Source: Shouchella clausii
GTDB lineage: Bacteria; Bacillota; Bacilli; Bacillales; Bacillaceae_D
NCBI RefSeq assembly: GCF_001598215.1
Contig: NZ_BCXJ01000001.1
Coordinates: forward strand, 1,054,001-1,118,000
Reading direction: 5' to 3'
Length of the DNA stretch: 64,000 nt
The notes under the pieces are model-generated. The model did not search any database, was not told where the DNA came from, and worked only from the letters and a program-made list of their open reading frames with translations. Shown here in pieces: positions 44,064-48,988 of the stretch. How positions within the stretch are numbered: position 1 is the first letter of the stretch; the number at the start of each line of letters is the position of its first letter. The position numbers and the translations under genes are program-made.

Positions 44064-44422
44064 AGGTCCATCATCTTGGCCTGGCTGTCGCTGATTTACA
44101 GGCAGCCTGGCCTTATTATGTAGCAACGCTTGGCTTCAGGTGGGAATGGTGTATAAGTACGGGCGAGGAGCGCTTTGCCTTTTTCCGAAAAGGGCCGTTC
44201 ACGCTGGAACTCGTGGAAACAGAACCAGGAGGGCAAACGCTCCATCTCGCTTTTTCATTAGCCGATCATGAAGCGTTTGCTGTGCTGGAAAATATCAAAA
44301 AACGCGGCTTTGTGCTTACCGATCGGTTTCTCCTTAACCGAGACGAAGAGTCGCTTTATTTTGTCCATCCAAATGGGGAAGAAGTAGAGTTCATTGTTCA
44401 TCCAAAAATGAAATGGGCTTAG
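44060..44422 (+). CDS. VOC-family (glyoxalase-like) protein
   Basis: A 120-residue vicinal-oxygen-chelate protein: VHHLGLAVADLQAAWPYYVA at the start and SLYFVHPNGEEVEFI at the end, the usual paired beta-alpha-beta modules with likely metal ligands His4 and Glu. It could be an isomerase, dioxygenase or lyase. GTG start overlaps the QueA-like stop. Its last 32 bp overlap the end of the convergent response regulator gene. Confidence 0.85.
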   Translation: MKVHHLGLAVADLQAAWPYYVATLGFRWEWCISTGEERFAFFRKGPFTLELVETEPGGQTLHLAFSLADHEAFAVLENIKKRGFVLTDRFLLNRDEESLYFVHPNGEEVEFIVHPKMKWA

Positions 44423-45050
44423 CAATCCCTGCTTGAATCGCAAACAACGCAGCTTGCGTCCGATCATGAAGCTCCAATTTGGCAAGAAGATTGGAAACAT
44501 GGGTCTTTACCGTTTTCTCGGAAATAAACAGTGCGCCTGCGATTTCTTTATTGCTCTTGCCAGTGCTGATTTCTTTCAGCACGTCGACTTCTCTTTCCGT
44601 CAAACGGTTCACTTTGTCGGCGACAGAATTGGCCGGGCGCGCCACATGGGTGAGTACATGCTTCATAATCCGCGGGTCAAGGGGAAGTTCCCCGCTATTA
44701 GCGGCCTGAATCGTGTGGATCAACACGTCAGGTTCCACATCTTTTAGCTGATAGCCACAGGCTCCCGCTTGCAGTGCTTGAATCACAAAGTCTTTTTCTC
44801 CATAGCCTGACAACATAAACACTTTTGCCTGTGGATAATCACGTAAAATCACTTGTGTCGCCTTAATACCATCCATGACTGGCATGTCAATGTCCATCAA
44901 TAATATGTCAGGGCGGTGGCGTTCATACAATGCAACCGCTTCTTCGCCATTGCTCGCTTCAGCGACAATCTCAATGTCGGGATGGGCTTCTAAAAAATAG
45001 GCGAGCCCTTTGCGGACAACATGGTGGTCGTCAGCTAGCAAAATTCTCAT
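44391..45050 (-). CDS. yhcZ: NarL/FixJ-type response regulator (YhcZ-like)
   Basis: A 219-residue response regulator. The receiver domain has the acidic pair LLADDHHVVRKG, phospho-Asp in LLMDIDMPVMDG and Lys in the later strand. The C-terminal LuxR helix-turn-helix has LTEREVDVLKEISTG and ISEKTVKTHVSNLLAKL. It overlaps the kinase gene by four bases. The pairing with a GAF-containing kinase resembles B. subtilis YhcY/YhcZ; symbol by similarity of architecture. Confidence 0.9.
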   Translation of the reverse strand: MRILLADDHHVVRKGLAYFLEAHPDIEIVAEASNGEEAVALYERHRPDILLMDIDMPVMDGIKATQVILRDYPQAKVFMLSGYGEKDFVIQALQAGACGYQLKDVEPDVLIHTIQAANSGELPLDPRIMKHVLTHVARPANSVADKVNRLTEREVDVLKEISTGKSNKEIAGALFISEKTVKTHVSNLLAKLELHDRTQAALFAIQAGIAKPISFLDEQ

Positions 45051-46159
45051 TCCATTTCCCCCCTTTTATCAGGAAAGCGAATTTCCCACGTCGTTCCCTT
45101 CCCTGGCGTTGAGGCCAATAACGCCTGCCCGCCTAGTTCTTTTGCCCGTTTGCGGATCGAATCAAGCCCTTGTCTGCGGCTCACGTGGTTTGTTTCAAAG
45201 CCATCGCCTTGATCAGAAATCGTTAAAAACCACTCCCCCTGTGCTTTTGTCAAAGAAATCATTGCTTCTTTCACGCCAGCGTGTTTTTTACAATTGTTTA
45301 ATGCTTCTTGGATGATTCGGTAAGTAGCTAACTCCATTTTTGCTGGCCAGTCAATCTCAGTAGGAAGGAGGAGGCGTACGGAAATGCCGATTAAGCGGCT
45401 GTACTGTTCAACTGCCTGTGCCAGTCCCGCCTCTAATTCCTCTCCTGAATGGCCTCGTATAATGGCCCGTAGTTCACCCAATGCTGCGCTTACCAATTTG
45501 GAAACGTCAGTCATTTTCTCTTTCATTTCTTCGTCTTTTGTCCGGATAGCCATCCCTTGCAACGTCATGTTTACGGAAAAAAGCAATTGGTTGACTGAAT
45601 CATGGAGATCCTGCGACAGCCGTTGCCGTTCATTTAATTCAGCCTGCTCTGCTTCAAAGGCAACAAGTTCAACACGTTTGATCGCTGTTCCGATTTGCAA
45701 AGCAATGAGTTCTAACAACTCCAGTTCATCTTGTGCATAATGGTGTTTTTGGGGATGGGCAACGTTTAAGATGCCAAGGGGCTCCTCACCTGCATAGATG
45801 GGAACCGTAGCATGATGGGTAATGCCATTTGTGTCGCCCCAGCTTCGTTCAATGGCCCGTTCTAAACGTTGGCATTCAATCATATTAACAGCCCGTTCCA
45901 ATGTCCCGTGTAGGAATTGGTTTTTGCACCAGCAACCGCCGTCTTTAAGCGGGGCGCAATTTTTTCGCGAGAGTCCAGGAGGAATGCCGCTTACAGCATA
46001 AAGGGTATGGTTTCCCCTTTGATCAATTAAAAAAATCCAGCCGCTCGAAAAATCGAGCTCCGCAAGCAATGTGCGCAACACGTTGTCAAGCATACGTTTC
46101 AAGTCATTCTCGGCATTTAACGTCTGGGAAATTTGCTTAAGCGTGTGGAGATGGCTCAT
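45047..46159 (-). CDS. yhcY: GAF-domain sensor histidine kinase (YhcY-like)
   Basis: A 370-residue cytoplasmic kinase without membrane segments. A GAF domain spans about residues 20-165 and contains a Cys cluster (NCAPLKDGGCWCKNQF) that might bind a cofactor. The HisKA_3 phospho-acceptor is in LSQDLHDSVNQLLF, and the ATPase domain ends with DQGDGFETNHV. It should phosphorylate the coupled NarL-type regulator. Start at ATG 46159 after AAAGGAG; 55 further upstream codons are open but lack a site. Confidence 0.88.
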   Translation of the reverse strand: MSHLHTLKQISQTLNAENDLKRMLDNVLRTLLAELDFSSGWIFLIDQRGNHTLYAVSGIPPGLSRKNCAPLKDGGCWCKNQFLHGTLERAVNMIECQRLERAIERSWGDTNGITHHATVPIYAGEEPLGILNVAHPQKHHYAQDELELLELIALQIGTAIKRVELVAFEAEQAELNERQRLSQDLHDSVNQLLFSVNMTLQGMAIRTKDEEMKEKMTDVSKLVSAALGELRAIIRGHSGEELEAGLAQAVEQYSRLIGISVRLLLPTEIDWPAKMELATYRIIQEALNNCKKHAGVKEAMISLTKAQGEWFLTISDQGDGFETNHVSRRQGLDSIRKRAKELGGQALLASTPGKGTTWEIRFPDKRGEME

Positions 46160-46308
46160 TATATAAACTCCTTTTGATGAAAAAGGTACAGTGTAAATTT
46201 CTCTTTCTAGTTTAGCATAGGAGTTCTTTGCCGTGCTTTTGTAATGTTTAAACAAACAGCAAACGTGAAATAGCAAAGTAACACCTTTAGTTAGGAAAGG
46301 AAACGAAC

Positions 46309-46548
46309 ATGAAACGACACACATTGTTGATTATTGCTGGATTTTTGCTTTTTGGCGCTCTTGTTGGAGGCGGAGCTGGCGCCGGTTTACGCTACCTTTT
46401 CCACTACTTTTGGGCCGATGGTCAGCTGCGAGGAGGCGATTTATGGGTAGCGGCAGCAATTGCTGCTGTGCCTGGAATGGTGGCCAGCGTCTATTGGGGC
46501 TATTTTTACCGCAAAAAAGAACGCAACGAAACCAAGCATTTGCATTAA
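46309..46548 (+). CDS. small two-helix membrane protein
   Basis: A 79-residue protein with two predicted membrane segments: LLIIAGFLLFGALVGGG(residues 5-25) and WVAAAIAAVPGMVASVYWGY (45-65), ending in a charged tail KKERNETKHLH. No family recognised. GGAAAGGAAACG precedes the ATG. It faces away from the two-component genes and may be their target, by position only. Confidence 0.7.
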   Translation: MKRHTLLIIAGFLLFGALVGGGAGAGLRYLFHYFWADGQLRGGDLWVAAAIAAVPGMVASVYWGYFYRKKERNETKHLH

Positions 46549-46609: not shown

Positions 46610-46638
46610 TTGCAGATAAAACAAGGATATCGTATAGT
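46610..46638 (+). promoter_or_regulatory. sigma-A promoter of the manganese riboswitch transcript
   Basis: -35 TTGCAG (46610-46615), 17-bp spacer, -10 TATAGT (46633-46638). Transcription should begin near 46645, just ahead of the riboswitch. Confidence 0.7.
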
Positions 46639-46662
46639 TAAACAAAATCAAATGGAAATTCC

Positions 46663-46761
46663 CAAAGGGGAGTAGCATAAAAGCAGCTGTCGTCATTACA
46701 GGAGCAATCCTCGGCACTGCTGGCAGCCCAGGCTTCATGAGCTGCTTGCGAGACCTTTGTC
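46663..46761 (+). promoter_or_regulatory. yybP-ykoY manganese riboswitch
   Basis: The sequence carries the hallmarks of the yybP-ykoY aptamer in order: CAAAGGGGAGTAGC, the GTCGTCATTACAGG segment, CTGCTGGCAGCC, AGGCTTCATGAGCTG and CTTGCGAGACCTTTG. The first and last blocks pair as P1. This RNA class binds Mn2+ and in bacilli turns genes on by preventing a terminator. The P1 3' strand (AGACCTTTG) is also the 5' strand of the terminator, giving the expected switch. Downstream genes are a tiny basic protein and a kinase, not the usual exporters. Confidence 0.9.
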
Positions 46762-46787
46762 CATACTGTGGGCAAAGGTCTTTTTTG
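46751..46787 (+). terminator. riboswitch-controlled terminator
   Basis: AGACCTTTG (46751-46759) and CAAAGGTCT (46773-46781) pair perfectly, extended by CC/GG, followed by six T. The 5' arm is shared with riboswitch P1, so metal-bound and terminated states exclude one another. Confidence 0.92.
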
Positions 46788-46836
46788 CGTGCTTTTGCCT
46801 GCGGCGGTTACCAGAAAACATAAGGGGAGATCGGAT

Positions 46837-46959
46837 ATGTCGAAAATAACAAAGCTACTAAAATCAAAAGCTGTGCGGGAAGGGGTCAAACAAGCACAAA
46901 AACACCTCTTGCCGGTTGTCAAAAAAGAGTTGGCAAAGCGAATGTCAAAAAAACGATGA
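46837..46959 (+). CDS. 40-residue basic protein under manganese riboswitch
   Basis: Encodes MSKITKLLKSKAVREGVKQA then QKHLLPVVKKELAKRMSKKR: 40 residues, strongly basic and amphipathic helical, with no Cys or obvious metal ligands except one His. AAGGGGAGATC precedes the ATG. It is the first gene behind the Mn riboswitch and its stop overlaps the kinase start (ATGA). No family recognised; its charge suggests contact with membrane, RNA or the kinase. Confidence 0.75.
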   Translation: MSKITKLLKSKAVREGVKQAQKHLLPVVKKELAKRMSKKR

Positions 46960-47588
46960 ATGCGGAGACGTCTACGATCTATAGAGATGAATTGGCCAAC
47001 ATTGTATTTGTAAAACAAGGCAGGAATATAGCGCTAAACAACACTCCTGAGAATTGGGAACTAATTGGCAAGGGCAGGAGTGCATACGTCTTTAAAATAA
47101 CAGGGGAACAGCGGGCGATCAAAGTGTTTTATCCGCCGTTCGAGCATTTGGCGATGGAAGAGGCACGCAACTATGAGAAAGTAGCGGGTATTTCGTTTTT
47201 CCCTCGCCTTTACGAAGCGGGTGAAGGATACTTAGTCATGGATTTCATTCGTGGGAAAACGTTTTTTGACTGCTTAGCAGAAGGCGTGGCAATTACGAGG
47301 GACCATGTTGCCCAAGTCGACAAAGCCCTTGAATTGGCAAGGAGCACCGGCTTAAATCCGTCTGACATCCACTTGCATAACTTGCTGCTGACAGAAACAG
47401 GCGCTGTCCGCTTAATTGATATTGCTCGTTTTTCCCAAAAAAAGCAATGCACACAATGGCAAGACTTAAAAAGAGGTTATGAGCGCCATTATGGACAACG
47501 TTATTTTCCGAAACGAGTGCCAAAGTGGTTGATGCGGATTGTCGCCTATTTCTATCAGTTGCGAAAACGTTTGAACGGCAAACAGTAA
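46956..47588 (+). CDS. small serine/threonine protein kinase-like protein (YrzF-like)
   Basis: A 210-residue kinase-fold protein. GKGRSAYVFKI is a glycine-rich loop, AIKVFYP has the ATP-binding Lys, DIHLHNLLL matches the catalytic loop (Asp, Asn) and RLIDIARF corresponds to the metal-binding DFG position (Asp). It resembles the YrzF-type short kinases of bacilli, which are shorter than Hanks kinases and lack extracellular domains. Cytoplasmic. Translationally coupled to the preceding tiny gene and under the Mn riboswitch. The substrate is unknown. Confidence 0.82.
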   Translation: MNAETSTIYRDELANIVFVKQGRNIALNNTPENWELIGKGRSAYVFKITGEQRAIKVFYPPFEHLAMEEARNYEKVAGISFFPRLYEAGEGYLVMDFIRGKTFFDCLAEGVAITRDHVAQVDKALELARSTGLNPSDIHLHNLLLTETGAVRLIDIARFSQKKQCTQWQDLKRGYERHYGQRYFPKRVPKWLMRIVAYFYQLRKRLNGKQ

Positions 47589-47620: not shown

Positions 47621-48130
47621 CTAGTGATTTCTCTGTTCTTTTAATTGGGCAATATCAGGAGAACCGAGGGCGCGGTTCCAGTCAACGAGCTCGATCTTTT
47701 CTCGGTTTAACGTCTGATGAATCGCTTCTGCCAATGTGGTTTTGGCCAAGCTAGCCATGTATTGTTCTTGCGCTTCCAGAAAAATGGCTTCAAGCCGTTT
47801 TGAACCGGCTTCTGCTGCAGGAGTCTCAGGGAAAACATATTGGATCAAGCCTTCTGTCTGGAAGAATGGGCTTGTTCCTTCAATGGCTTCAAGAATATCA
47901 AGCATGGTGATCGCTTCAGGCGATTTGGCGAGGGCGAAGCCACCGCTATTGCCAGGCACGCTCGTAATGAGCTTGCTGATGACAAGTTTGCGCATAATTT
48001 TCTTTAAATAAGAAGGAGAAACGCGGAGACGGGCGGAAATGGTATCGCTTTTGACGTGTTGCTGCCCTGTTTGCGTTGCTAAAATGACAAGGATACAAAC
48101 AGCTTGTTCAACCCCGCTTTTAATTTTCAT
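47621..48130 (-). CDS. Rrf2-family transcriptional regulator
   Basis: A 169-residue Rrf2 regulator: winged helix-turn-helix at residues ~10-70 (GVEQAVCILVILATQTG, DTISARLRVSPSYLKKIMRK, then GNSGGFALAKSPEAIT). The Cys ligands for an Fe-S cluster seen in IscR or NsrR are absent from the usual loop after residue 85, so it probably senses a ligand or redox state differently, as YwnA-type members do. ATG 48130 follows AAAGGTGTG. Confidence 0.88.
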   Translation of the reverse strand: MKIKSGVEQAVCILVILATQTGQQHVKSDTISARLRVSPSYLKKIMRKLVISKLITSVPGNSGGFALAKSPEAITMLDILEAIEGTSPFFQTEGLIQYVFPETPAAEAGSKRLEAIFLEAQEQYMASLAKTTLAEAIHQTLNREKIELVDWNRALGSPDIAQLKEQRNH

Positions 48131-48259
48131 TCGCTTGCACACCTTTCTACAAAAAGGTTGTTCGTTTTCCACTATACGGCTAGTTGGTGAGAAAATGCAA
48201 TCCTGTTTTTAGAGGGGCAAGTTATGGTATTTTTAATAGAAAGAAAGGAAGGTGCATTC

Positions 48260-48988
48260 GTGTTTACTTTTATTGGTTGTGGCAGTGCGTTTCATACAAA
48301 ACTAGGCAATAACGGCATCATGGCAAAAGAAAGTGGCCAGCTTTTTTTGATTGATTGCGGCAGCTCTACGTTTCATCGTTTGCAATCGTTTCATGTATTA
48401 GACGGGGTTAAGACGATACACGTCGCCATGACCCACACTCACCCTGACCATATAGGCTCCCTTGGCGATTTGATTTTTTACTCCTATTTTAAAATGGAAC
48501 CAGCATTTCAAGCAAAAGTAACAGTGCTAGCACCTAAAGCATTGCTGCCGGCGATAAAGGCAGTGTTGAAAGGAAATGGAGTAGACGATACCCATGTCTT
48601 TTGGCAAGAAATAAAAGATGCCTATATGTACGAAGGCTGCGGCGGGATCGAGCTTGTACCTGTACAAGTGCAGCATGCTGAAAATCTGCTTTGCTTTGGC
48701 TACGAAATTAACACGAAAGGCAACCACATTTACTATAGCGGCGATGCCAATGCAATCAGCGCCGACGTGTTGCAAAAATTAAAAGCAGGACAATATGACG
48801 TCTTTTACCAAGACACATGCACGGCCGATTATCCAGGAAATGTCCACTTGTCCTTACGTAAGCTGATCGAACTTGTCCCTGAAGAGAACCGGTCTGTTGT
48901 GTGCTGCATGCATGTAGATGAGGAATTCGATTTAGCCTACGCAAAAAAACAAGGATTTCAAACGGCAACCGATTATTTGATTTCGTGA
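48260..48988 (+). CDS. metallo-beta-lactamase-fold hydrolase
   Basis: A 242-residue MBL-fold protein of the RNase Z-like/AttM type. The metal motif is MTHTHPDHIGSLGDL (HxHxDH), with further ligands in YSGDANAIS (Asp) and CCMHVDEEF (His). Substrate unknown. I start at GTG 48260, five bases after GGAAGGTG, which gives the family-typical beginning MFTFIGCGSAF; the frame reads 12 codons further upstream. Confidence 0.88.
   Translation: MFTFIGCGSAFHTKLGNNGIMAKESGQLFLIDCGSSTFHRLQSFHVLDGVKTIHVAMTHTHPDHIGSLGDLIFYSYFKMEPAFQAKVTVLAPKALLPAIKAVLKGNGVDDTHVFWQEIKDAYMYEGCGGIELVPVQVQHAENLLCFGYEINTKGNHIYYSGDANAISADVLQKLKAGQYDVFYQDTCTADYPGNVHLSLRKLIELVPEENRSVVCCMHVDEEFDLAYAKKQGFQTATDYLIS

Follow-up and report, generated by a model that had tools for sequence, protein, structure and literature searches.

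A leader RNA encoded in the genome of Shouchella clausii, within the 64,000-nucleotide stretch of contig NZ_BCXJ01000001.1 analysed here (the window), is probably a manganese riboswitch of the yybP-ykoY class that lacks the P2 hairpin and acts as an ON switch, at which high Mn2+ would prevent transcription termination and induce an operon of a small basic ORF and a YrzF-like kinase gene. Sequence, structure, conservation and linkage were observed in the analysis, whereas Mn2+ binding and the switching mechanism are carried over from published relatives. Table 1 lists the features of the locus and of its flanks.

Table 1. Features of the riboswitch-kinase locus and flanking genes, in positions of the window
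Feature	Position	Strand	Basis or remark
Response-regulator-like gene (by eye) and GAF sensor histidine kinase gene	44391-46324	-	upstream of the riboswitch locus
Candidate sigma-A promoter, TTGCAG-17-TATAGT	46610-46638	+	read directly; weak
Predicted P2-less yybP-ykoY (Mn2+) riboswitch aptamer	46663-46759	+	RF00080 match; alignment and covariation of 38 relatives
Aptamer P1.1	46663-46668/46754-46759	+	
Aptamer L1	46669-46674/46750-46753	+	GGAGTA with GAGA
Aptamer P1.2	46675-46677/46747-46749	+	
Aptamer P3	46682-46692/46712-46721	+	
Aptamer P3.2	46700-46703/46708-46711	+	hairpin on the P3 leg
Aptamer P4	46722-46727/46741-46746	+	
Intrinsic terminator	46750-46786	+	stem 46750-46782, 15 pairs; T run to 46786
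Basic ORF, 40 aa	46837-46959	+	Shine-Dalgarno sequence AAGGGGAG at 46822-46829, 7 nt before ATG
YrzF-like minimal protein kinase, 210 aa	46956-47588	+	ATGA overlap with the small ORF
Rrf2-family regulator gene	47621-48172	-	convergent with the kinase gene; Pfam Rrf2, E = 6e-30
Metallo-beta-lactamase-fold protein	48224-48988	+	Pfam Anti-Pycsar Apyc1, 56.4 bits against a cut-off of 50

An earlier sequence-only reading of this DNA had assigned the leader to the yybP-ykoY type, and the assignment was borne out. Both of the aptamer strands, CAAAGGGGAGTAGC (46663-46676) and GCGAGACCTTTG (46748-46759), are present when the window sequence is read directly. The covariance-model search proposed in that reading as a check succeeded by E-value and returned nothing at the curated cut-off: the Rfam model RF00080 matches positions 46655-46812 with 26.0 bits, at E = 2.2e-5 in a permissive local scan and at E = 5.8e-5 when the whole genome is searched, which is significant though under the curated Rfam gathering cut-off of 45 bits, and a scan of the whole window at gathering cut-offs gave no Rfam match. 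One visible reason for the low score is that the P2 hairpin is missing; a TAAA linker (46678-46681) alone joins P1.2 to P3. The second RF00080 copy of this genome, on contig C3 before a TerC gene (L001), scores 41.5 bits and has a hairpin at the P2 position. Members of the class with a three-way junction have been described (PMC9495176, in the part available), and the missing P2 is therefore neither counted against class membership nor retained as a novelty. Alternative identities for the leader, as a CRISPR repeat, a PyrR site or an sRNA, were rejected, since all fell far under their cut-offs, with E values of 0.95 to 3.9 in the permissive scan. Judged by its sequence, the leader belongs to the yybP-ykoY class, in the three-way-junction form.

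Thirty-eight aptamers located before kinase genes, including that of the window, were aligned over a consensus structure of 28 pairs, and the alignment was used to build a search model designated R1. The strands of L1 (GGGGAGUAGC and GCGAGAC) and of L3 form invariant columns across all 38 rows, and L1 and L3 of the window also align to the Rfam consensus of RF00080. Two-sided changes occur in 14 of the 28 consensus pairs and support P1.1, P1.2, P3 and P4. Standard pairs fill 97.8% of pair cells in these aptamers, and pairing falls to 30-49% when partners are slid out of register. These aptamers score 0.323 for covariation, where shuffles average 0.165 and none of 500 attains the observed value; for one of the five measures, further pair types, 19 of the 500 shuffles did attain it. 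Because the aligned rows are related, the shuffles overstate the significance of these figures.

The terminator, described in the sequence-only reading as sharing a strand with P1, has just that design. Its 5' arm includes the 3' strand of P1.1, and P1.1 and the terminator are therefore mutually exclusive. When arms as short as 6 bp are allowed, 44 of 49 kinase-linked sites have a hairpin built in this way. Upstream, a TTGACA/TATAAT-like pair lies just 5' of the aptamer in 38 of 49 related sites; the candidate promoter of the window was called neither by a consensus scan nor by the search for TTGACA/TATAAT-like patterns. Members of the class from L. lactis and X. oryzae are reported, in the available parts of PMC6754395 and PMC11087558, to dock L1 and L3 with Mn2+, which stabilises P1.1 and blocks the terminator. 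In Halalkalibacterium halodurans, suppressor selection yielded deletions that are expected to disrupt a terminator of this kind upstream of ykoY (PMC10898510, available part). By analogy with these published relatives, Mn2+ binding and the switch between P1.1 and terminator may be carried over to the window, as may, for kinase-linked sites that have no P2, the specificity for Mn2+ itself.

The window has the parts of these relatives in the same order, and Mn2+ turning the operon on is therefore the most likely mode of action. At high Mn2+ the aptamer would dock and keep P1.1 closed, its 3' strand would be unavailable to the terminator, and RNA polymerase would read into the operon of small ORF and kinase; at low Mn2+ the terminator would form. 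The small ORF, which has its own ribosome-binding site, would probably feed ribosomes to the kinase gene through the ATGA overlap, and the kinase, if active, would serve a response to Mn2+ excess beside TerC-type proteins under other copies of the riboswitch. Induction by Mn2+ in Shouchella clausii, translational coupling, and kinase activity with a role in Mn2+ excess are inferred. That the leader is instead a non-functional remnant, or responds to a divalent ion other than Mn2+, with the operon outside Mn2+ control in either case, seems very unlikely: such a reading would fit the RF00080 score under the gathering cut-off, the decayed-looking leaders upstream of relatives of the kinase gene (L110 and L130), and the report that a Streptococcus member binds Ca2+ too (PMC9495176, available part), but it sits poorly with L1 and L3 sequences that do not vary over 38 rows, the window included, with frequent compensatory changes, with a terminator that is intact in the window, and with the presence of the same aptamer type before TerC genes.

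Linkage of the riboswitch to the kinase gene is conserved in many related Bacilli. Full-length kinase-linked sites, many of them rows on which R1 was trained, receive 80-104 bits from this model, and the copy in this genome that has P2 and precedes TerC receives 41.8 bits. Within the family, 24 of 28 loci have an R1 aptamer upstream of the kinase gene on the same strand. L031 and L032, whose length and score suggested long proteins of the PrkC type, are not among the 28; L022 and L027, where the locus ends inside the aptamer, are. Across the order, 60 loci hand-picked among about 150 matches listed (L033-L092, about one per genus plus extras, with L081 and L090 repeating family loci) include 27 with an R1 aptamer upstream on the strand of the kinase and 33 without. 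A third sample, of named loci (L093-L172, the best 80 of 540), gave 54 linked loci and 26 without an upstream same-strand aptamer; 19 of these 80 repeat loci of the family or order sets, and 38 of the other 61 are linked. Hand-picked and best-match samples favour close relatives, so the linked fractions are not unbiased rates. By our own arithmetic, from about 3 sites per 4 Mb, about 0.1% of genes would by chance have a correctly oriented R1 site in the 3 kb upstream of them. The linked named loci, among the best 80 of 540, span 20 genus names besides Bacillus, including Shouchella, Oceanobacillus, Geomicrobium, Halalkalibacter, Evansella, Mesobacillus, Metabacillus, Sutcliffiella, Sporosarcina and Psychrobacillus, and this breadth supports the earlier proposal that a Mn2+ switch is wired to the operon. 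Strong R1 matches were found in 3 of 17 loci tested from other orders of the class, and weak ones in 2.

The 38 family genomes searched contain 21 kinase-linked sites. RF00080, which is independent of R1, recovers 20 of these at E <= 0.0013, missing the site in G028, and places none of the 21 over its gathering cut-off. Likewise, 15 named loci, 8 of them with strong R1 matches, gave no manganese-riboswitch match at the gathering cut-off. In a kinase tree of 85 rows (49 linked and 36 not, with L003, L018 and L030-L032 left out), the linkage label changes 16 times, against 27.5 when shuffled, and the 11-row clade that holds the window kinase is linked throughout. The survey of homologous loci proposed in the sequence-only reading thus found that the linkage recurs, together with many kinase genes that are unlinked and many loci that have no small ORF. 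Seven of the unlinked named loci, among the best 80 of 540, are of the B. subtilis-group type (L128, L134-L136, L140, L149 and L150). In records of Terribacillus and of Virgibacillus sp. 7505 (L132, L139, L141 and L144) the aptamer is on the opposite strand, some 1 kb before the kinase gene, and would therefore serve a divergent gene. The leaders of L110 (2840-2960) and L130 (2830-2935) look like decayed riboswitches, in which a 3' half or a P1 strand and a terminator-like repeat are left and strands of L1 or L3 are altered or lost; R1 gives them 22.8 and 21.2 bits, and they have no Rfam manganese match.

What lies between aptamer and kinase gene varies: nothing, the small ORF, the small ORF with a DUF6376 lipoprotein gene, an FbpB-like ORF, a Spo0M-like ORF, DUF1232, or TerC, which takes this position in some genomes. 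We also sampled 40 R1 sites (L173-L212) among the matches listed, chosen away from the listed kinase genes, with at most 5 ORFs kept per locus. TerC is among the downstream ORFs at 21 of these 40 sites, further support for the proposed Mn2+ switch; Spo0M is found at 18, FbpB at 10, DUF1232 at 9, EcsC at 3 and the kinase at none, each of these downstream families having been checked on one to three members. We read the kinase gene in terms of manganese physiology chiefly because it shares its switch with TerC and, in some genomes, its operon as well. Mn2+-type riboswitches also precede Spo0M, FbpB, DUF1232 and EcsC, alone or with TerC, at sites in the range L176-L212. FbpB belongs to a Fur-regulated family, and the presence of its gene behind a manganese switch suggests cross-talk between iron and manganese.

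The 40-residue basic ORF overlapping the kinase gene was confirmed as first described, its TGA overlapping the kinase ATG in the sequence ATGA. Searches of Pfam and NCBIfam gave nothing for it at E <= 1. Over 22 sequences, pN/pS is 0.26 in its own frame and at least 0.41 in the other five, and the ORF is under purifying selection; a chance frame was rejected on this ground and on the position of 28 of 30 homologues behind the riboswitch. Members of the family have 36-43 residues, with G16, A20, P26, E31, K34 and R35 invariant in 20 sequences and a net charge of +12 or +13 in three members. An amphipathic helix was considered and dropped, since the observed moment was reached by 12%, 9% and 66% of shuffles in three sequences. 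At the Oceanobacillus jeddahense locus L103 (2860-3600) the small ORF and the kinase gene form one frame of 247 aa, which may be a true gene fusion or the product of an indel in the database entry.

Of 299 genomes searched with a profile, 30 encode a homologue of the small protein. An R1 aptamer lies upstream on the same strand in 28 of the 30 loci, the exceptions being the two weakest matches, and the kinase gene is in the locus for 20. Eight of the 28 have the riboswitch and no kinase gene in about 1.5 kb downstream, and 5 of 6 such loci viewed show a DUF6376-like lipoprotein gene (by eye, and by Pfam for L236). With the riboswitch at 28 of 30 and the kinase at 20 of 30, the small protein is therefore a manganese-riboswitch protein first and a companion of the kinase second. 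The sequence-only reading had called it a small basic partner of the kinase, a description that agrees with the 20 loci near a kinase gene and is weakened by the tighter riboswitch linkage and by the many riboswitch-kinase operons that have no small ORF. These kinase-less loci, and the many kinase genes of the order and named samples that are unlinked to any aptamer, could mean that the riboswitch mainly serves the small protein and that in this lineage operon structure carries along a kinase with no part in the manganese response. We consider this unlikely, since in many other genomes the kinase gene is the first after the riboswitch, at a gap of about 85-140 nt with the small ORF absent, and the linked label is clustered on the kinase tree, some of which near relatives alone would cause. 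Our preferred reading remains one in which the kinase is itself a target of the switch.

At the start of the kinase gene the ribosome-binding-site score is 0, which together with the ATGA overlap suggests translational coupling to the small ORF. Against Pfam Pkinase (PF00069) the window kinase scores 23.9 bits (E = 3.3e-5), under the cut-off of 31.7 bits, and its homologue in L096 scores 20.1 bits. Residues K56, E69, D137, N142 and D155 are invariant in 59 kinase sequences; in view of known kinase motifs, we take them to be the canonical Lys, Glu, catalytic Asp, Asn and metal-binding Asp. An AlphaFold2 model (pLDDT 93.9, pTM 0.88) finds its best PDB folds in RIO2 (Foldseek E = 6.9e-8, TM-score 0.53) and PknA/PknB. 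Of 397 genomes of the order, 280 contain a match at E <= 1e-12, though some of these matches are not orthologues. The B. subtilis-group relatives in L134-L136, L140, L149 and L150 (among the best 80 of 540) are 47-49% identical to the window kinase; their putative identification as YrzF was made partly by genome position (PMC3297567, available part), and the window kinase probably belongs to the YrzF family. YrzF is named among four Hanks-type kinases of B. subtilis in the accessible part of PMC12747378, and MutL is listed as a contact of YrzF in that of PMC4205851.

It is possible, if doubtful, that the substrate of this kinase-like protein is a small molecule, or that the protein is a pseudokinase. 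Its Pkinase score under the Pfam cut-off would agree with that, as would weak similarity to KDO kinase, RfaY, RIO1 and ABC1 profiles, a catalytic loop of the form PSDIHLxN versus the usual HRD form, and a compact C-lobe. Speaking for a protein kinase are the invariance of the five presumed active-site residues, the RIO2 and PknA/PknB folds, and the count of YrzF as a Hanks-type kinase of B. subtilis (PMC12747378, same part).

The flanks of the locus hold genes of other kinds (Table 1). Beyond the kinase gene, the Rrf2-family regulator gene is followed by the Apyc1-like gene, which stands in a chromosomal, not a phage, context.

The RNA class and its three-way form are already known from the sources available to us. 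Compared with L. lactis yoaB and B. subtilis ykoY/meeY (RF00080), the window aptamer shares the L1 and L3 sequences, the layout of P1, P3 and P4, and a terminator that takes the 3' strand of P1.1, but it differs in having no P2 and a score under gathering; those riboswitches drive a transporter or a TerC protein, whereas the window switch drives a small protein and a kinase. Loci of presumed YrzF type in the B. subtilis group share the kinase family with the window and have no R1 match within 3 kb. Manganese riboswitches are known for exporters and TerC-type proteins. MntS of E. coli is a tiny protein tied to manganese regulation and repressed by Mn2+ through MntR; compared by description, it resembles the window small protein in size and in its tie to manganese, whereas the latter is expected to be induced by Mn2+. 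The three-way-junction member before mgtA in Streptococcus controls, again by description (PMC9495176, available part), a transporter gene, unlike the window aptamer. No kinase target of a yybP-ykoY riboswitch was found in the portion of the literature searched; the founding reports of 2015 lie outside that coverage, and the priority of a kinase target is therefore uncertain.

Among 397 genomes of the order, 369 have an R1 match at E <= 1e-6, whereas RF00080 matches exceed the cut-off of that model in 83 genomes and reach E <= 1e-3 in 217; these order-wide searches used stricter filters at which weak matches are lost, and the RF00080 run omitted the 26-bit site of the window itself. P2-less aptamers can fall under the Rfam cut-off, which misses much of this RNA in Bacillales, so regulon maps that use the cut-off miss targets.

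A kinase conserved as a target of the switch would connect metal status with protein phosphorylation, and would provide a little-studied kinase family with a testable signal. A family of small proteins tied to manganese is also indicated. As a tentative idea, held with low confidence, high Mn2+ might set a two-part post-translational brake, in which a cationic protein of 36-43 aa acts on manganese-handling membrane proteins and the YrzF-type kinase phosphorylates targets in the same response. If true, this would amount to a direct circuit from riboswitch to phosphorylation in many Bacilli, and would provide a physiological signal for an orphan kinase family of the B. subtilis type.
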